From positions 62,001-126,000 of the forward strand of contig JACPIU010000017.1 of assembly GCA_016187935.1 (NCBI GenBank): a stretch of 64,000 nt of DNA. Reading direction: 5' to 3'. The stretch comes from Bdellovibrio sp. GTDB taxonomy: Bacteria > Bdellovibrionota > Bacteriovoracia > Bacteriovoracales > Bacteriovoracaceae. Each line of letters opens with the position of its first letter. The first letter of the stretch is position 1. Below the pieces are notes generated by a model, which saw only the letters and a program-made list of their open reading frames with translations, was not told where the DNA came from and made no database searches. Of this stretch, positions 33,633-46,734 are shown in pieces. The position numbers and the translations under genes are program-made.

Positions 33633-36083
33633 ATGCTGAACAGGAATGATCACTTGTGGGAGAGATTATTAAGACAAGCTATTGCCTTATTCTTGTGTTC
33701 CCTTTTGATCATGCAAAATGACTATTTTATTGGCCGTACCTTTGCTCAAGATGTTGACGGAACACCCCGCCCGGATGCCCACAGGTTGAGCGGATGTGAG
33801 GACACATCTCACGTTTCTGGTGACGAGTGTACAATCCAAACAGTCAATTACGACCATCAAGATATCATCATCACCGAAGGCTATTATTCCATGTTGGTGT
33901 TGTGGGCGGCAGCTATGATGGCCCTCTTTCAGATTCGGCGATGTACAAAGAAGGGGATTACTTGTGGCTGGTCTACGCTTTTCTCCTCTGTTGCCGGTTT
34001 GGCTTTGCTGGCCGGCGAAGTTGTTCAAATTGCCATGTATTCTGAGGCCCAAGATAAAATTGAGTATCGCCCTGATATGCTAGCAAAATATAAGCAGCAG
34101 TGCGCGGGTTCAGGCTCTGGTGCAGGTACCGCGCCAGCAGAAGAGGGAGCGATTGACGGTAAGAGTATTTGTGATCAATATGCCGCTCTGGTTGCTCAGA
34201 GAAAAAGTTATGAAAAGGCCAAGGAGGCGGCTGAAATTAAGTTTATGTTACAGACCGGCGCCGCTGTGGCCTATGCTCTCGCTGCAATTATCGAATACTA
34301 TGCGGCGGTTAAAGAAAATATAACTGATGATGCTCAACTGGCAAAATTATCAGCTGGCGAGGCCTCTATGGTTGCGGCAATCGCAGAATGTACGGTAGGT
34401 GCCGGAGCATGTGAGGGATTATGTGCCCCCTGTCAGGCGGCGGTTGGTACTTGTATCGGGATTTTAACCAACCTCATAGCTCAATTTGCAAATCCATCTC
34501 CCATGCCCTCAACGGCCCATAGCAAACTGATAATGACTCCCCTTCAGACCTGTGTGCAGGCCATTAAGCCTGCTTGTGCCGCTGCCGGGGTCTGTGCCGA
34601 AGCTGGTGCTCCACTCTCGGCCGATCTTGAGGTCCGCTATCAAGAACTGGAATGCCACAACATGCTTCCGTGTGATGTTGGAAATCAAGATGTAGCTGGA
34701 GAGGTGGCGGTTTTTTTTAAGCGACCTTATTATTACACCTGGCAAAATTTTTATTTCCGTCCGAGTAATGAAAACTCATTTAACACGACTGATGATAAGA
34801 TCGTGACGGAACAGATGCGAGGGATGGAGACTGAAGTCTTCTTGCGTGGAGGGAATCAGTCCCCTCTCCTTGCAGATTACCATTTTTTACGACATCTCGA
34901 CGATAATCAAATGTTTACTCAAAGTGAGATTAATTTTTTCCAACAAACTTTTAATCATATAATTCCTATCGCCAGTGCAGGCCAATCCCCGAGTGCTTCA
35001 AACATTAATAATATTATTACTAAGGTGATTGGGTTATCTGGAGCAGCGGTAATTATTATTGTGGCCCTCTTTGGCGTGCTCAAAACGGTATCGGACAATT
35101 TGTTTGCGACTCCGCTGAAACGCGGATTGTGGAATACATTACTAGCTGCTCTGGCCGGTGGAGGAGCGGCTTATACCAAGGCCGGAGTTATTGCCAAGTT
35201 GGAAGAAAATATTGCAAATATCAACAAGATTCTTGATGCCGTTGACCCCAGTACAAATAAAATTACCATTCCTGATGCCCAGCCAATTCCGCTCAACACT
35301 GTGGTTATTGACTCTGATAGCTTGGATGGAGCACCCGTGATTTCAAATGACAACCCTCCTCTTCCCTGTGCCAGTGGTGGTGATGGCAAAGGCAAATGCA
35401 ATGAGATTGCTCCGGGTATGGCCGCAGCTCTCCAAACGCTTGAATTAGGTTCGTTGGCAGGCATGTCGAAGTCCTTGGCGACGTTAGGAAAAGAGTTGGG
35501 TGGATCGCGCGATGTCAGCCCCAGTGCTATGCGCTCGGCCAGCAGCTTGGCCAATAATGCGATTCGCGCAAACAGGCTATTGAAGAATGCCAAAAAATTG
35601 TACAACCAAACACGAGGCAGACGGGGTATGGCCCCAATTCCTTTTGAGAAAGTTGAACGCGACCTATTGAAGAATGTGTTTGCTCAGACTCATGCGACAC
35701 TCAAGGCCCAGAAAACTGATGCCAAAACACTTTTGGGGGCAATGCAATCTCAAGGCGAACTTTCTGAACAAGATAAGAAAAGATTCGCAGAAAAGGTACA
35801 GGCCTCTGAGGCACAAAAGAAACTGGCAGGAGGAACCGTGGCGGGAGTTGCTGCCGATCCTTTTGCTTCCTTTATGTTACAAAATGGTGAATCAAACCCC
35901 GCCCTATCACTTGAATCGGAAAGCGAAATCAATCCCGGTACGGAGGGAGAGGTGGCGATTGATTCCTCCCTGGTAATTCGATCGAATGACATTGAAACAA
36001 ATCCCGCCATCTCATTATTTGAAATGTTGACGTCGCGATATATGAAATCGGCGTACCCCATTCTCTTCGAGGAGCAGAAATGA
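33633..36083 (+). CDS. Giant membrane protein A with C-terminal RY-x-K-SAYP motif
   Basis: An 816-aa protein not matching any family I recognise. It has an N-terminal export signal or helix (residues 15-38), a cysteine-flanked segment, and two transmembrane helices near 85-130 (YYSMLVLWAAAMMALFQI; GLALLAGEVVQIAMY). A Gly/Ser/Ala linker (GSGSGAGT, near 158) and Cys-rich stretches (CTVGAGACEGLCAPCQA) follow. A second membrane pair lies near 460-520 (AAVIIIVALFGVLKTV). The tail is helical and Ala-rich and ends with SLFEMLTSRYMKSAYPILF. The second half is collinear with the next gene (ATPLKRGLWNTLLA; PCASGGDGKGKC). The gene overlaps its paralogue by four bases (ATGA). Confidence 0.6.
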   Translation: MLNRNDHLWERLLRQAIALFLCSLLIMQNDYFIGRTFAQDVDGTPRPDAHRLSGCEDTSHVSGDECTIQTVNYDHQDIIITEGYYSMLVLWAAAMMALFQIRRCTKKGITCGWSTLFSSVAGLALLAGEVVQIAMYSEAQDKIEYRPDMLAKYKQQCAGSGSGAGTAPAEEGAIDGKSICDQYAALVAQRKSYEKAKEAAEIKFMLQTGAAVAYALAAIIEYYAAVKENITDDAQLAKLSAGEASMVAAIAECTVGAGACEGLCAPCQAAVGTCIGILTNLIAQFANPSPMPSTAHSKLIMTPLQTCVQAIKPACAAAGVCAEAGAPLSADLEVRYQELECHNMLPCDVGNQDVAGEVAVFFKRPYYYTWQNFYFRPSNENSFNTTDDKIVTEQMRGMETEVFLRGGNQSPLLADYHFLRHLDDNQMFTQSEINFFQQTFNHIIPIASAGQSPSASNINNIITKVIGLSGAAVIIIVALFGVLKTVSDNLFATPLKRGLWNTLLAALAGGGAAYTKAGVIAKLEENIANINKILDAVDPSTNKITIPDAQPIPLNTVVIDSDSLDGAPVISNDNPPLPCASGGDGKGKCNEIAPGMAAALQTLELGSLAGMSKSLATLGKELGGSRDVSPSAMRSASSLANNAIRANRLLKNAKKLYNQTRGRRGMAPIPFEKVERDLLKNVFAQTHATLKAQKTDAKTLLGAMQSQGELSEQDKKRFAEKVQASEAQKKLAGGTVAGVAADPFASFMLQNGESNPALSLESESEINPGTEGEVAIDSSLVIRSNDIETNPAISLFEMLTSRYMKSAYPILFEEQK

Positions 36084-38704
36084 AAACCTACCAGACGTTA
36101 CGACAATTGTGCGCTCTTTTTCTCGTTTGGATGTTGACGCAGATTGGGCCGGTTCAAGAGCTTAGAAAATATACTGGCGGGTGGATTTCAACGGCTCATG
36201 CTGCAGCTGTTGATAGCCGCTTGCCTGAATGTCAAAACTTAAACAGTGAGGAAAAGCAAGAAGCCGAAAGTTCTGGCCGTTGTACTGTCCAGAGTATGGA
36301 ATTGGAAAACGATGGGTGGATAATTTCCGAAGGTTATGTGAGCACTTTGCTCACTTGGGCCGTGGCCATGGTTTTCATGTACCAAATTCTCCGTTGTCGT
36401 ATGCCTAGTGTGAGTTGCGGCTATTCCACTATTTTTTCAGCGCTTGGTGCTGTGGCGCTCTTCGCAGGTGAAATTGCTTCGGTTGTAGGTTTTGCCATTC
36501 ATATTGGAAAAATTAAGAAAAAAGTTGAATATCGATTAGGTTCCGTGATGGGTATGCAGGGAAAATGTGATTCCAATACGGCACCGACTGCCGGAAGTGG
36601 TAGTAGTGGGTCAGGATTTATTGGGGATGTTTCGCCCTGTGATCAATTCAACTATTTGAAAGATCAGAAAGAGGCCATGGAAGGAGCAAAGACTGCTGCA
36701 ACCTGGAAGTTCGGCTTGGCCATTGCTGCAGCTGCAGCATTTGCGATTGCTGCTATTATCGAACTCGTGGGATGGATACAAGGGAATATGCACGATGCAG
36801 TGCTTTTTGCGATGGGAAATACATCAACAGCGGCGGTTGAGGGTGCTTCTTCGAGTTGTACTGCTTTTACTGCTCCCCCTGCGGTTCTTGCATGTCAGAC
36901 AGCATGTCAGGCCTGTGTCGCAGGTATTGCAACAGCTCAAGAACAACTAAGTGAACTGATTGCCCAGAGCAATAATGTTATTACTCCAACTACATCCGTT
37001 GCCGATTGCACAAAATACAGAGTGCATAGAACGACGGCACAGACAACCGCAGAAACGGCATGTATGGCCGCTTCCGCTACGGCACCTGCATGTAGAGCGG
37101 CTGCGCTGGCCTATACCTCTGCACTTGCAGAAGCCGTGGCAGTATCTCTTTGTCCTCAGAATCAAACGTGCCATTTGGGATGTGCTGTTCCTGGAACATT
37201 GCTCATGGGAAAATACTCGCCGGATGAATTTTATAACAGCTCACGCAAGACCTGTGGGCTTGAGCGGACATACGAACTAGATATTTCCCAAGCGCGAACA
37301 GAGTATGGTTACGATAAACTGGCATTAAACCCTTTTCTTGAGGTTGTCGAACTTCCAGATATATTTTTCAAGCGTTCTGTATCTGGTTCTGACCTCTTAC
37401 TTATTAATGATGAAGAAGTCCAGCGTGAGTTGGCCCGATCTCAAATGGTAATTGAACTTCAACGTGATCAAGAAAAAATATCATTGAATGATTATTACAA
37501 AATACGCCAATTCTATGGGGATGATTTATTTGACAACAATCAATTTAATTTTTTAAAAATTATTATCGATAGTGCCGCAGCGGAAAATAAGACAAAGACC
37601 AGTGAAGATTCAGGAATGCCGGTGCATCAGGTGATTGGTAGCGGTCTGGGAATTGTGGCCATGGCCATTCCCATTTTTATTGGTCTTCTGAAGACTGCGG
37701 ATCTTCAGGCCGATAATGCCTTCTCAACACCAGCACGACGTTTTGGTTGGAATAGTCTGGCTACGATTTTGGCAACCGGTCAAGCCATTTACACAAAACT
37801 TGCGGTTATTGATGTCCTGGATGGTAACATTACAAAGCTTCAAAAGATCTTAGACCTGGTGGCCAACGATCCTCGCTCGGTTGAAGTGCCGCCACCGGCA
37901 AGCCAAATACCCTATAATGCTGTCGTTATTGATGATGATTTTGTCGATACCCCACCGCCACAACTTCCCCCAGGTCAAACATTACCTTGTCCCGCAGGAG
38001 GAGATGGCAAGGGCGGGTGTAAAGAAGTTGGAAATATCGTGGATGCTTCACTCGGGTCTGTAGATTTATCTTCGCTTGCCGGCTTGACCGGAAGCTTAAA
38101 AAGTTTGAATAGTAATGTGTCCGGCAAAAATAGTTTTGGGCAAGGAACCTTCAATAATGTGGCGACGCTTGGATCGGCGGCACGCGGATTAAAAAAGAAA
38201 ATTGGGGAAATGCAAAAGAAGATTAATAAAAATCGAGAGAAAATGAAACTTCCCCCTGTAGATTTTGCGAGTATGCAAACTCAGCAATTGAAAGGGATGT
38301 TTAAAAAGGCCAAAGATTATCTGGCCGCCAAAGGTATGACGGCGGATCAGTTGATGCCAGTTTCACCTGTTGATCCTACCAACACAAAAGAGTTAGAAAA
38401 GAAAGTGGCCGATGGTGCGGTTGGAGCAGCCAAAATCGATGCCAAGAAAGGGTCAGCGGTACCTGATCTGAGTGGTCTGGTGGGTGATTTCAAATTTGAT
38501 GAAGGTGAAGGCGCGGGTGCGGCCATCGAATCTCATCCAGAAACTTCGGCCAGCAAAGAACTGGATGACACTTTTCAAGTGCCTAATAATGATATCGCAT
38601 CTGACGCGAATGCCGATATCTTTCAGATGCTTTCGTCACGTTATTTAAAAACGGCATACCCTATTTTCTTTGAAGAAGAAACTGCTCCTGCCAAAGCACC
38701 TTAA
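36080..38704 (+). CDS. Giant membrane protein B, paralogue of protein A
   Basis: An 874-aa paralogue of the preceding protein. Shared landmarks in the same order are: an N-terminal signal ending STAHAA; IISEGYVSTLLTWAVAMVFMYQILRC; a GSGSSGSG linker; a Cys-rich central part (ACQTACQACVAG); a membrane pair around IPIFIGLLKTADL; TPARRFGWNSLATILATGQAIYTK; PCPAGGDGKGGCKEV; an Ala/Lys helical tail; and the end IFQMLSSRYLKTAYPIFF. The many paired cysteines suggest the loops face an oxidising compartment. Translational coupling to protein A suggests the two act as a hetero-oligomer. Function unknown. Confidence 0.6.
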   Translation: MKTYQTLRQLCALFLVWMLTQIGPVQELRKYTGGWISTAHAAAVDSRLPECQNLNSEEKQEAESSGRCTVQSMELENDGWIISEGYVSTLLTWAVAMVFMYQILRCRMPSVSCGYSTIFSALGAVALFAGEIASVVGFAIHIGKIKKKVEYRLGSVMGMQGKCDSNTAPTAGSGSSGSGFIGDVSPCDQFNYLKDQKEAMEGAKTAATWKFGLAIAAAAAFAIAAIIELVGWIQGNMHDAVLFAMGNTSTAAVEGASSSCTAFTAPPAVLACQTACQACVAGIATAQEQLSELIAQSNNVITPTTSVADCTKYRVHRTTAQTTAETACMAASATAPACRAAALAYTSALAEAVAVSLCPQNQTCHLGCAVPGTLLMGKYSPDEFYNSSRKTCGLERTYELDISQARTEYGYDKLALNPFLEVVELPDIFFKRSVSGSDLLLINDEEVQRELARSQMVIELQRDQEKISLNDYYKIRQFYGDDLFDNNQFNFLKIIIDSAAAENKTKTSEDSGMPVHQVIGSGLGIVAMAIPIFIGLLKTADLQADNAFSTPARRFGWNSLATILATGQAIYTKLAVIDVLDGNITKLQKILDLVANDPRSVEVPPPASQIPYNAVVIDDDFVDTPPPQLPPGQTLPCPAGGDGKGGCKEVGNIVDASLGSVDLSSLAGLTGSLKSLNSNVSGKNSFGQGTFNNVATLGSAARGLKKKIGEMQKKINKNREKMKLPPVDFASMQTQQLKGMFKKAKDYLAAKGMTADQLMPVSPVDPTNTKELEKKVADGAVGAAKIDAKKGSAVPDLSGLVGDFKFDEGEGAGAAIESHPETSASKELDDTFQVPNNDIASDANADIFQMLSSRYLKTAYPIFFEEETAPAKAP

Positions 38705-41317: not shown

Positions 41318-41929
41318 ATGAAGTTACTTTTGGCATTACTTTTAGCAATGATGATGTTGAGTGCAGGTTGTGGTGGTTTTAAGGCAAAACGTGTTGATGC
41401 CGCTGAGTCGGATGAAAAGGCCTTGGAAATTACTGATCAGTGGGTTTCGGGTGATACTGAAAAAGTGGTTCGTGATATCTTAAAACAAATTCAAGACCAC
41501 AAAGGTTTTCAAGCTTTTTTGCGCAAGAAAGGCTCTGCACCGAAAATTTTCATTGCCGATGTTCAGAACATGACCTCGGAAGCCTATTTCCCCATCAATG
41601 ATATTAATGACGAGATGTTGAATGAGTTTTCTTCATCTGGGGATTTTACTTTGATCGACGCTGCCGCTCGCGAAGCGGTTCTCAAAGAAATTACCTATCA
41701 AAATGATGGGATGGTTGATCCTGCCGATGTTAAAAAAGTGGGCAAGCAAACCGGAGCCGAACTCATGGTCTTTGGTAATGTTTACATGAAACCAGAGTCG
41801 CGCGATGGGAAAACCATTAAGCAATATAATGTCAACATTCGGATGACTGAAATTGAAAAGGCGGTTGAGGTTCTTCGTGTTCGTACAAAACTATCCAAGT
41901 TTTCCGAGCAGAAGAAAACAGGCTGGTAG
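41318..41929 (+). CDS. Penicillin-binding protein activator LpoB-like lipoprotein
   Basis: A 203-aa protein with a lipoprotein signal (MLSAGCGG, Cys18). The domain starts with APKIFIADVQNMTSEAYF, where LpoB has a strand followed by N-x-T, then GDFTLIDAAAREAVLKE and GAELMVFGNVYM. This is the alpha/beta fold of LpoB, the outer-membrane lipoprotein that activates the bifunctional synthase PBP1b through the peptidoglycan layer. No PBP gene is in the window. The surrounding lipoproteins are frequent companions of LpoB-type genes in other genomes as far as I know. It precedes a 56-bp palindrome. Confidence 0.8.
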   Translation: MKLLLALLLAMMMLSAGCGGFKAKRVDAAESDEKALEITDQWVSGDTEKVVRDILKQIQDHKGFQAFLRKKGSAPKIFIADVQNMTSEAYFPINDINDEMLNEFSSSGDFTLIDAAAREAVLKEITYQNDGMVDPADVKKVGKQTGAELMVFGNVYMKPESRDGKTIKQYNVNIRMTEIEKAVEVLRVRTKLSKFSEQKKTGW

Positions 41930-41951
41930 GAGAAAAAGACAAATCAAAGCT

Positions 41952-42007
41952 AGGTGCCATGTACCCGGAGCTATGCAGTACTGCATAGCTCCGGGTACAT
42001 GGCACCT
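41952..42007. repeat. Perfect 56-bp palindrome
   Basis: Twenty-eight bases from 41952 (AGGTGCCATGTACCCGGAGC...) are followed without spacer by their exact reverse complement, ending at 42007. The centre is GCAGTACTGC. The flanking bases (T/T) end the symmetry. It lies between the LpoB-like and COG3014-like genes, 22 bases after one stop and 26 before the next start. It is not a normal terminator since no T-run follows. REP-type element, cruciform, RNA processing site or protein-binding site are all possible. Confidence 0.9.
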
Positions 42008-42033
42008 TCTTTCTACTAAACAAGGTAATTGAT

Positions 42034-43788
42034 ATGAGAGCGCGGGTGAGTTGTTTGTTCGTTGTAGTGCTGTTGCTTCTAGCTTCTGTTGGATGTTCCA
42101 CCGGTGGTCTAAAAGAACGGGCGGAATTGCGATCGCTAATCTCTGCTTCCAATTGGGATGCGGCCATTGATTATGTAGCTAAATCAGATTTCTACAAGAC
42201 TGAAAACGTCGCTTTACTTCGGGCCATGGAACTTGGACTTCTCTACAACTCGAAAGGCGCATACTACCAATCTACCCAAATGCTGAATAAGGCCAAAGAG
42301 ATTCATCAGAAACTTTATACTGTAAGTATTTCCAGTGCCGCCAAGGGTGTCTTGGCCAATGAAAATTATGATGTTTACTCCGGTGCTTCTTATGAACGTT
42401 CACTCATACATTTTTATCTTGCGCTTAATCACTATCTGCTGTTTCTCAGGGGTGAATATGAAGGATATAAGATAGCTGAGAAAGATAGCTTGAAGGATGT
42501 TCCACCTAAGAAATTAAATGCAAATGAGCGCCGTTTGGAGCTTCAAGGCGCGCGTGCCGAGCTTCTCGATTGGGACTCATACTTGAAGTCTATTCAAGGT
42601 GATCGCGCGGGGCGAAGTGTTTTCAAAAATGATCTGCTGGCAAAAGTTTTTGGCGGCATGATTCATGAAGCATTTGAACGTCCTGAAGATGATCAAATTG
42701 CACTCCAGCTTTACAAAGATGCCAAGCTGGTACTTTTTAGAAACTATAACGCCTACAAAACCTACAATACCATTGCGCCAAAATTTAAAGGTGATTTCAG
42801 TAAACTTGCCTTGATGGGGGAGCAAGAAGTTAGCAGCAATTATACTAAACCAACCGAATATGCTCGTAATTTGGAGTTGTTCTTAGATACAAAAATATTA
42901 TATTTAACTAAGCGCATGCGTCCTGGTGATTTGCAAACAATCGCTAAGCAAATTCATGCCACTGAAAAGGCCATGGGAGAAGCCGCCAAGTGCGTTAATC
43001 GCGCTAATGTTGGAATTATCCTACAGACAGGTATTATTCCCAAAAAAGTTCCCGAGAAACATTATTACAGCTTAGAGAGCGCCCTGACGCCGGATAACCC
43101 CACCGAAGGCCAGAAAGCTGTGGCCAAGTTTGGTTCTCAAGTTATTATGCTGTTTGCCGGTGCACAACTTGGTTTGTTGCCTCCGCCCAACACTTATTCT
43201 CCTGCGGGAACACAGTTAGGAGTGGCCACAGCACAGATTGCCGCTAATGCTCTGGCCATTAGTTTTGAACTTCCCGTTATGGAAAATCAGATCATCGAAG
43301 ATCTAACCACCTTGCAAGTTTATAACGGTGCCGGAAAAATGGTGCAAGAATTTGACATCCCTCTGATCAATCCTCTGCTGGATGTTGCGAGTGAAGCCAT
43401 TGCAGAAGATTCGGCCTCTCGCTATACCAAACTGGGTATCCGACTGGCCTCCAAGCATCTCACGGCCATCGCGGCATCTTATGGTACCTATAGTCTAAGT
43501 AAACAGAAGCTTGGTGAGTTTTTTGCCAAGCAGGCCGCCGTTCTCCAATATATTGGTGCCAGCAAGGCCATTGAGGCCTCGGAAAAGGCCGATACCCGCT
43601 ATTGGAGTACCTTGCCGGCGGATTTTCGTATTCGCGATTTTTATTTGGAAAAAGGTAATTATACTTTCAAAATAGTGGTTAAAAAGATTTCCACTCCTGA
43701 CGTTCCCAAGAAGATCATTGATCTTGGAGCGGTCAATGTGGCCGATGGAAAGCAGAAGATTTTGTTAAATTACCGCATTCAATTATAG
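42034..43788 (+). CDS. COG3014-like lipoprotein with helical repeats
   Basis: A 584-aa protein with a lipoprotein signal (LASVGCSTGG, Cys21). Residues 28-260 are helical, with TPR-like pairs (NWDAAIDYVAKSDFYKTENVALLRAMELGLLYNSKGAYYQS). FYLALNHYLLFLRGEYEGY is typical of the COG3014 family, lipoproteins often found next to LPP20 and LpoB genes. The C-terminal 150 residues contain beta strands. It may form the scaffold of a lipoprotein complex at the outer membrane; that role is inferred from context. The palindrome upstream may separate its expression from the three genes before it. Confidence 0.65.
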   Translation: MRARVSCLFVVVLLLLASVGCSTGGLKERAELRSLISASNWDAAIDYVAKSDFYKTENVALLRAMELGLLYNSKGAYYQSTQMLNKAKEIHQKLYTVSISSAAKGVLANENYDVYSGASYERSLIHFYLALNHYLLFLRGEYEGYKIAEKDSLKDVPPKKLNANERRLELQGARAELLDWDSYLKSIQGDRAGRSVFKNDLLAKVFGGMIHEAFERPEDDQIALQLYKDAKLVLFRNYNAYKTYNTIAPKFKGDFSKLALMGEQEVSSNYTKPTEYARNLELFLDTKILYLTKRMRPGDLQTIAKQIHATEKAMGEAAKCVNRANVGIILQTGIIPKKVPEKHYYSLESALTPDNPTEGQKAVAKFGSQVIMLFAGAQLGLLPPPNTYSPAGTQLGVATAQIAANALAISFELPVMENQIIEDLTTLQVYNGAGKMVQEFDIPLINPLLDVASEAIAEDSASRYTKLGIRLASKHLTAIAASYGTYSLSKQKLGEFFAKQAAVLQYIGASKAIEASEKADTRYWSTLPADFRIRDFYLEKGNYTFKIVVKKISTPDVPKKIIDLGAVNVADGKQKILLNYRIQL

Positions 43789-43849: not shown

Positions 43850-43926
43850 ATCTATTCCCTAGCTTTTATTAATAAGCACCGGATTTTACAATTAGAATAT
43901 TAATTTATTTGTCAGAGAGGTTGTTT

Positions 43927-46734
43927 GTGAAAAGAAACCTATTTTCTAAAATGATGACCGTCATTCTTTGTTATTTGCTCGCGGTCAATCAAGTGATGGC
44001 ACAGACCCTCAAACATCAGGACAAAGAGCTGGAAATTTTGAAATCGGAAAATACCACTGGGCAGGCCAGCTACAAGCAAAAAAAATTAGAGAAATCTAAA
44101 AATGAATTCGGCTTTGGCAATCAGCTCGGTGATTTCAGCCTGAATTATTTACTCTTTATCTCGCACTATATTCCTGGCTCCCTCATGCCCGTAGTTTGTC
44201 GTAATCCCATGACGGCGTATCTGACGGGTGGTGTTGGCGGAGTTTTGCCCCTTATTTGGCTGGATAATTTAGTTTTTTCTCTGGGAAGTATTGTCTCCCT
44301 TTATACAGAGTTAATGATTTTTGATCATCTGCAAAGTTACTATCGGAAGATGGAAGCGGATATGAAAGGCGGCGATAAATGCAACGAATCCGTAAGTGAG
44401 AATGATAGCGATGCCACCAATGTGACTAGGAACGGTAGTGGTAGTGGTAGTGGTAGTGAGACAGCGAATGGAAATGGGAGTGGCGCAAAGAGTTTGTTAT
44501 TGAAACGGAATGCGCTCAAAGGAGGGATCGTAACACAGAGAAAGTTACGTGCTGATTTGTCGTTAAATGATGGTAGTGGAAGTGGCAGTGGTAGTGGGAC
44601 GGCAAACACTGCATGTACTCCTGGCCCTGAAGAAAATTTGCAGCTCAAGGGATTGGAACTCCAATACGATGCTCTTGCGCATGAGATTGAACTTCTTACC
44701 ATGAAGGCCGATGCCATTCGTGCCACCAAGGCCGCTTGGCTTTTATCTGCTGCCCTTAGCGCGGTGATTGGTGTTGTCATGGTTACTACAGGAGCAGCGG
44801 CCGTGACTGCAGGTGCTGCTGCAGGTACCATAATTGGGGGAGAGCTTGGATATTTCACAGTGTCGCGACCTGTTGGTCAAGCCTATGGTGCAGCTATGGG
44901 TGCCCTATATGGTGCTGGAGTGGTCGAACCTATGCATTCCCAGACAGGAGATGTCTGTTCCCCAATGTTTTTGGTTACCGGTGCCTATCTGGGTGCCGTC
45001 GGCATCAATGAAGCAATCATTAAGTACAAGGCCGATGGGGAACCCCATCCCGACATTAAATTTCCCGGTGCGCCTAAATCGAGCTTCAATGCTCCGGCTC
45101 GAGGCAAAGAAATTTTGCCAGTCTTAAATCGCGCCAAATCATTTGAAGAGTTGGTTTATGGTTTATTAGAAATGCTGGCAGGGAAGGGTGTGACATTGGC
45201 CCAGCACCGCCGGATACAGGACGAATTGAAAAAAAATGGCGGATTTAAGGTCGATACAGAAGACTTCTTGGCATTAAAAAAATATATAGGCTTGGCATTA
45301 AAGGAAGATTTTTGGAAAAAATCTTCTGAGCTGATGCAAAAATTATCCTTGATGGATAAGGCCCAGGCCACCACAGTCAATACAAAAGATGATCAAGAGG
45401 AAGCCGCGGACATTGCGTCGGAGGCAGCGGAGGCCGAGAGTCTTGGCGACGGATTTAATATTTTTAAGGATGCCACGGCGGTTTTTAATACCGGCACGAA
45501 TGCCGTCAATTTGACGAACGAAAGTGAAATCGGCGCGGATCTTAGAAAGGTCAAGGAGAATCCCGTGGCCAATGGCCCAGAGGTCATTAGCAAATATTTA
45601 AGCTGGGATTTCTTTGTTAAATTTGCCAACTATCTTGGATTCAGTAATGGAGGTGAATTGGCCTTCCTTCTCTATATTACCATGGTAGGTGATCTGGTGG
45701 TTTTGAAATCCAGAAGTTGGATTATTCATCCTCTCATGTCCTATTTCTATGGGATTGACGGGACTTGGGAGGCCAAGCTCGTTTCTTCCTTGGTTGCGGC
45801 CTACTTTGCAAATGCCTATCGAAAAGAGGTGATCGAGGCAAAGAAGAAGGCCATTGATTTTAAAATTCGGGTGGGGGAAATTATCACGGCCATGAATCGT
45901 CCTGGCGGAGGTGTCCCCAATCCCTCAGGAGGGCAAACTTCGTCGGCAAAAGGAGAATCGGCCCAACTATCATCTTCTGCGGAACTAAAAGAATGTATTA
46001 ATAGCAGCGATTTAATCGGTCCCCAAGCAGTGGGACCATGCCAGGGACAGCAGAATCAAAATGTCACGGCCTTCTCTCTTGATAGTGAAGGATTTACTTC
46101 TGCCTTCGGCAATATTGGCGCGATTGCCGCTGGCGCTGCGGGCAATCTAGGGCAAGCTTTAAATCGCATGTCTGCGGGAAATGAGAAGGGGGCCCAGGGT
46201 GAGTTGCGTAATTTAGGCAGCGCCGGTCCCAGCTTGGCGGCGGCGATCAAGAGCAATCTTGATTTATTAAGCAAGAAATTCCCCAAGAAAAAGATAAATG
46301 ACCGTTTGAGCAATCTGGAAAAACTCTACGCGGGTCGTATTCAAAATGCGCTGCGATCTGCGGGTCTCAAGGCCCCAACTTTGGCGGCATCGCCTTTGTC
46401 TTTTGCGACTTTGGCCTCTATTGCTCCACCGAAGGAGCAAAAAGGTAATGAGTCCGATGGTGGGAAAGATAATGCTGTCCTCAACAAAGGTACCAAACCT
46501 TTGCTGGCAGATTACGGAGGTTTCAAAATGGATTTTGCCAAAGGTAAACCGCTACCGATGGCAGGAGGGCAAATCAGTTCTTATACCAAGCAGGATTATC
46601 AGGATGCCGTTAAAGGGAACTTTGAATACAAAGATGATGATATTGGCCAGAACACACAGGAAGATATTTTTAAAACGATCACACTTCGCTATTTTAAAAC
46701 CGCTTATCCTCTCATTTTCAAAAAGAAGGATTGA
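43927..46734 (+). CDS. Giant membrane protein C, distant relative of proteins A and B
   Basis: A 935-aa protein. GTG at 43927 with GAGAGG six bases upstream gives MKRNLFSKMMTVILCYLLAVNQVMAQ, a good signal peptide; a TTG at 43909 is less likely. Hydrophobic segments lie near residues 85-140, 270-330 and 570-600. Two Gly-Ser repeat linkers occur near 170-180 and 216-224. The Ala-rich tail leads to EDIFKTITLRYFKTAYPLIF, which aligns with the ends of A and B. The central Ala/Gly membrane part (TAGAAAGTIIGGELGYF) differs from A and B. Family unknown. Confidence 0.6.
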   Translation: MKRNLFSKMMTVILCYLLAVNQVMAQTLKHQDKELEILKSENTTGQASYKQKKLEKSKNEFGFGNQLGDFSLNYLLFISHYIPGSLMPVVCRNPMTAYLTGGVGGVLPLIWLDNLVFSLGSIVSLYTELMIFDHLQSYYRKMEADMKGGDKCNESVSENDSDATNVTRNGSGSGSGSETANGNGSGAKSLLLKRNALKGGIVTQRKLRADLSLNDGSGSGSGSGTANTACTPGPEENLQLKGLELQYDALAHEIELLTMKADAIRATKAAWLLSAALSAVIGVVMVTTGAAAVTAGAAAGTIIGGELGYFTVSRPVGQAYGAAMGALYGAGVVEPMHSQTGDVCSPMFLVTGAYLGAVGINEAIIKYKADGEPHPDIKFPGAPKSSFNAPARGKEILPVLNRAKSFEELVYGLLEMLAGKGVTLAQHRRIQDELKKNGGFKVDTEDFLALKKYIGLALKEDFWKKSSELMQKLSLMDKAQATTVNTKDDQEEAADIASEAAEAESLGDGFNIFKDATAVFNTGTNAVNLTNESEIGADLRKVKENPVANGPEVISKYLSWDFFVKFANYLGFSNGGELAFLLYITMVGDLVVLKSRSWIIHPLMSYFYGIDGTWEAKLVSSLVAAYFANAYRKEVIEAKKKAIDFKIRVGEIITAMNRPGGGVPNPSGGQTSSAKGESAQLSSSAELKECINSSDLIGPQAVGPCQGQQNQNVTAFSLDSEGFTSAFGNIGAIAAGAAGNLGQALNRMSAGNEKGAQGELRNLGSAGPSLAAAIKSNLDLLSKKFPKKKINDRLSNLEKLYAGRIQNALRSAGLKAPTLAASPLSFATLASIAPPKEQKGNESDGGKDNAVLNKGTKPLLADYGGFKMDFAKGKPLPMAGGQISSYTKQDYQDAVKGNFEYKDDDIGQNTQEDIFKTITLRYFKTAYPLIFKKKD
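44431..44600 (+). repeat. Gly-Ser codon repeats inside giant membrane protein C
   Basis: Near 44434-44457 GGTAGT is repeated four times, and near 44572-44599 a similar Gly-Ser run occurs with mixed codons (GGTAGTGGAAGTGGCAGT). Both encode flexible linkers and are possible slippage sites. Confidence 0.7.

Follow-up and report, generated by a model that had tools for sequence, protein, structure and literature searches.

REPINs have been described in Pseudomonas fluorescens SBW25 as spacer-containing doublets, about 71 or 110 bp long and present in hundreds of copies (PMC3116915). Some TnpA-Y1 subclasses (2.6 and class 3) have atypical REPs devoid of GT[AG]G, and "double-foot" REPs, whose feet face each other, are suggested to be able to arise when an inverted dimer loses its central part (PMC6006769). 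Bdellovibrio is not mentioned in that work (PMC6006769), and the literature we searched holds no earlier description of REPIN/RAYT systems in this Bdellovibrionales lineage. Here, we analyse a palindrome found in a 4.40-Mb metagenome-assembled genome of 48 contigs, whose congeners are the Bdellovibrionales metagenome genomes GWA2_49_15 and nzgw164. We consider it very likely that this palindrome is a mobile hairpin of the REPIN type, i.e. two identical REP units placed tail to tail without spacer, and that the small dispersed family to which it belongs is mobilised in trans by the single RAYT of the genome.

The palindrome and its setting

The palindrome lies in the window, i.e. the whole 64-kb stretch of DNA that was analysed, between two genes for lipoprotein-like products (Table 1). 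Written as its two arms it reads AGGTGCCATGTACCCGGAGCTATGCAGT/ACTGCATAGCTCCGGGTACATGGCACCT. The arms have 28 nt each, are 100% complementary and are separated by 0 nt. The second-best perfect arm within the window has 10 nt (spacer up to 15), and simple arithmetic gives about 1e-12 spacerless arms of 28 nt expected by chance in 64 kb (64000 x 4^-28). Hence, the original prediction of a perfect spacerless palindrome with a negligible chance origin holds. As single-stranded DNA the 56-mer folds at -34.3 kcal/mol (z = -13 relative to shuffles). As RNA it forms a hairpin of -54 kcal/mol with a 26-bp stem, after which comes an interrupted T tract. A lone 28-nt arm has no stable fold (-1.0 kcal/mol, z = +1.0), and a single unit is thus not the imperfect hairpin typical of GTAG-tagged REPs. 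The search of Rfam with the palindrome returned just sub-threshold matches of the microRNA type, because the hairpin is long. The identity of the arms may reflect a young insertion, or hairpin-templated repair in which one arm serves to correct the other.

Table 1. Coordinates of the palindrome, its parts and the flanking genes in the window.
Feature	Position	Strand	Basis or remark
Perfect spacerless palindrome, REP doublet (REPIN-like)	41952..42007	.	Arm comparison and folding
Left REP unit, AGGTGCCATGTACCCGGAGCTATGCAGT	41952..41979	+	Match to 28-nt family model R1; alignment A1
Right REP unit, identical to left, inverted	41980..42007	-	Family model and alignment
T-rich tail TCTTTCT immediately 3' of the hairpin, terminator-like in + direction	42008..42014	+	Putative function
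LpoB-family lipoprotein gene	41318..41929	+	PF13036, E 4.5e-20; TIGR02722 under its cut-off
Large lipoprotein-like gene	42034..43788	+	Adjoins the LpoB-family gene across the family

The intergenic gap that contains the palindrome has 104 bases (41930-42033). The palindrome starts 22 nt past the stop codon of the upstream gene and ends 26 nt ahead of the start of the downstream one. The upstream gene had been described as LpoB-like, with which the PF13036 match agrees. The label given to the downstream gene, COG3014-like, could not be confirmed, its protein having no match in Pfam or NCBIfam. Two large membrane-protein-like ORFs (36080-38704 and 43909-46734) bracket a set of SOD, LPP20, LpoB-family and lipoprotein genes. 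The C-termini of these ORFs are related (E 2e-11, 26% identity over 202 aa) and both close with DIFxxxxxRYxKTAYPxxF.

A dispersed repeat family and a RAYT-like gene

We searched for copies with a model of the 28-nt arm based on sequence alone (R1, E < 0.003), built from 16 of the units found. This model identifies 25 units in the genome, distributed over 16 loci; the two congeners (G001, G002) and one further genus (G079) have none. A 13-nt core of the arm recurs in the genome and the 16-nt pattern GGTGCCAKGTACYCGG has 12 exact copies in it; this pattern has 0 copies in 58 relatives, and the reversed-pattern control also gives 0. It had been proposed that many genome-wide copies would point to a REP-type element, and this is what we found. 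Five loci are inverted doublets (the window, C34, C39, C48 and C6:308), two are direct tandems (C1 and C40), and the others are single units or ends of a cassette. Simple ORF calling places most units outside genes, several of them 5-25 nt from an ORF end; the exceptions include the 5' copy beside the RAYT, which lies within a neighbouring ORF. Such low copy numbers were counted against the REPIN reading. The units have no GTAG or GGAG foot, and the bases preceding GTGCC vary (CTAG, GAAG, TCTG, ATTG). Since this foot is absent and a lone arm remains unfolded, the element is not a canonical GTAG REP, and both points were counted against the REPIN reading.

The ca. 25 units dispersed over 16 loci rule out a single-copy regulatory site. 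The perfect dyad symmetry and the intergenic position would suit the operator of a dimeric transcription factor, or some other selected single-copy regulatory site, yet the element has many copies at unrelated loci, is missing from the orthologous gap of GWA2_49_15, and most other relatives in which both genes were read have no comparable gap. We regard such a site as extremely improbable.

At 8 of the 25 REP ends (C1:168562, C40:28039, C48:164941, C24, C34:313, C39:554, C39:2430 and C6:322878), 8-14 nt of the preceding flank are duplicated in tandem and run into the element, compared with 0.5% at random positions. This is possibly a signature of insertion or slippage.

The genome has one Y1_Tnp gene (C18:36048-36620, 190 aa), in line with the earlier suggestion to look for a RAYT. 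The protein scores 37.7 bits with PF01797 (cut-off 23) and 76.5 bits with NCBIfam NF047646 (REP_Tyr_transpos, REP-associated tyrosine transposase; cut-off 80), and just 18.4 bits with the IS200 model. The NF047646 score, slightly below the cut-off, was counted against the REPIN reading. It resembles the solved TnpA-REP chain 4er8 (E = 2.5e-4), and its HUH motif (H61-Y-H63) and candidate catalytic tyrosine (Y120) are kept among relatives. Inverted copies of the motif bracket the gene, at 35953 (+) and 36649 (-) of C18. The 5' copy falls within a divergent ORF (L099:911-1534, -), in its N-terminal region, which resembles a signal peptide. RAYT-like proteins were found in 88 of the 143 genomes searched. 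All 12 loci with verified gene orientation have an inverted repeat common to both flanks of the RAYT, scoring 13-29 against at most 10 for direct and reversed controls; 14 of the 26 loci were lost to an over-strict motif filter. Cross-locus pairs make a poor control in this test because related RAYTs share REPs. Many of the flank repeats in relatives read GGTKCCATG..., which is related to the motif described here. By analogy with known REP/TnpA-REP systems, the RAYT would cleave and rejoin the single-stranded hairpin.

A 1.25-kb cassette (C27:131170-132420, L270:571-1821), with an ORF inside that resembles HNH endonucleases (221 aa), is also bounded by inverted copies of the REP motif. Its flanks are common to C24:23345, C34:313, C39:554, C40:526, C40:28067 and C6:322878, several of which are truncated at contig ends. 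Around seven copies with long shared 3' flanks are ends of HNH-gene cassettes and hence not independent, which was counted against the REPIN reading. The palindrome might then be a pair of terminal inverted repeats left by the collapse of a larger IS or cassette, such as the RAYT unit or the HNH cassette, instead of a self-replicating REPIN. The motif does end both the RAYT unit on C18 and one HNH cassette (C27:131170-132420), and RAYT relatives flanked by terminal inverted repeats ("TIRYTs") are known (PMC3733652). But solitary inverted doublets occur at several loci and recur in the related family of other genera, and we find such a collapse unlikely. One might also speculate that one RAYT-like transposase moves its own gene, the HNH-endonuclease cassette and the spacerless doublets, all sharing an end motif, with arms kept identical by hairpin-templated repair and perfect palindromes as the active form. 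We regard this proposal as unlikely. The HNH genes of congeners have no inverted ends, and the link between REP and HNH is thus not general.

Spacerless doublets in other genera

A related REP, GTGCCATGCWCYTTTKGTTTCGCA, is found in 2-17 copies in each of nine other genomes (reversed controls 0). In these other genera of the family it adjoins the RAYTs and also forms spacerless inverted doublets. Of the doublets fetched from three genomes (G014, G026 and G100), seven are almost spacerless palindromes that measure 50-68 bp and are 80-97% paired. Hence, the palindrome of the window is the symmetric extreme of a habit of the family, not a unique object. The original claim that such palindromes are usually unstable seems overstated, since near-perfect ones of this size persist in other genomes. 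The related doublets show little covariation: two pairs have changed at both partners, a count that 400 of 500 shuffles also reach, and we place no weight on it. One doublet of G026 (C14:49629-49678, L261) has CTAATTAG, its own reverse complement, on both sides, which may stem from duplication of the target or from a palindrome that extends further.

The end of contig C37 and the start of contig C8 fall inside the same 32-nt arm, and joining them head to head would give a perfect 64-bp palindrome. Contig C46 likewise begins inside a related unit. C37 and C8 are probably adjacent, split by a palindrome of the same family of 64 bp or more. Assembly from short reads is expected to break off at such a structure, and the assembler may have forced both ends to be identical. 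The window palindrome might accordingly be put down to assembly, as a chimeric join or an arm mirrored by the assembler, the more so as the genome is metagenome-assembled and a similar palindrome occurs at these two contig ends. Yet the flanking genes are also neighbours in GWA2_49_15, which makes a chimeric join unlikely, and independent assemblies show related spacerless doublets with imperfect arms, not expected from mirroring. We thus hold an artefact to be highly improbable.

The orthologous site and a possible local role

In the sister species GWA2_49_15 (G002) the gene pair is adjacent and the palindrome is absent. The 63-nt spacer has instead an unrelated terminator-like hairpin of 11 bp followed by T6 (-20.7 kcal/mol). 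Where both genes of another relative were read, they mostly overlap or are at most about 20 nt apart, which fits the original reading of the gene pair as part of an operon. These spacers suggest that only this genus has a hairpin between the genes, and that the palindrome is confined to this species. Insertion and replacement look alike here because the spacers are too diverged to reveal a clean empty site. The palindrome is best read as a REPIN that was recently inserted, or that replaced an earlier sequence, and now supplies the intergenic hairpin. A recent insertion had been thought likely from the start, and the dispersed copies, the RAYT-like gene carrying the motif and the GWA2_49_15 site free of the palindrome all support it.

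The doublet may have inserted into an ancestral terminator between the genes, or next to one. The hairpin formed by its RNA, together with the TCTTTCT tail, would now terminate, attenuate or protect the LpoB transcript. The hairpin and its U-rich tail probably either terminate or attenuate transcription or stabilise the upstream LpoB mRNA, and we put the chances of such a role at about even. A terminator scan has a hit at 41956-42003 (+), in a search that found 7 sites versus 6.6 in shuffles and is not separable from background. Could a terminator or attenuator have evolved in place, with no mobile origin? The RNA hairpin is strong (-54 kcal/mol) and has a T-rich tail, and at this position GWA2_49_15 also carries a hairpin that resembles a terminator, with T6 but another sequence. 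But the sequence is one of a family scattered over the genome, whose members adjoin unrelated genes as well as the RAYT, and the arms far exceed the length that a terminator needs. As a full account an in-place terminator is very unlikely and largely refuted by the dispersed copies; as a local function it is compatible with the REPIN reading.

Comparison with known systems

REPIN/RAYT systems thus appear to extend to an uncultured Bdellovibrionales lineage, and the spacerless layout of the doublets recurs across genera. Such palindromes can apparently hide at contig breaks, and short-read assemblies may therefore undercount them. A close parallel is with the REPINs and RAYT of SBW25 (PMC3116915), which also consist of inverted extragenic pairs of REPs forming hairpins and of a family-specific RAYT with the motif of its REPs on both sides, whereas the doublets here have little or no spacer and the family has about 25 units. 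As with GTAG-tagged REPs and the E. coli TnpA-REP and BIMEs (PMC3733652, PMC8266576), a Y1 HUH transposase lies between short repeats that are also dispersed near gene ends; unlike them, the family has no GTAG/GGAG foot, and one unit by itself does not form a stable hairpin. The lack of GT[AG]G and the two facing feet recall the REPs of TnpA-Y1 subclass 2.6 and class 3 and the double-foot REPs (PMC6006769). The element shares with the putative Rho-independent terminator of GWA2_49_15 at the same position a stable hairpin in the RNA and a T-rich stretch behind it, but it differs in belonging to a repeat family, in its 26-bp stem and in its interrupted T tract. The palindrome is a known kind of element, a REPIN-type one of unusual symmetry.
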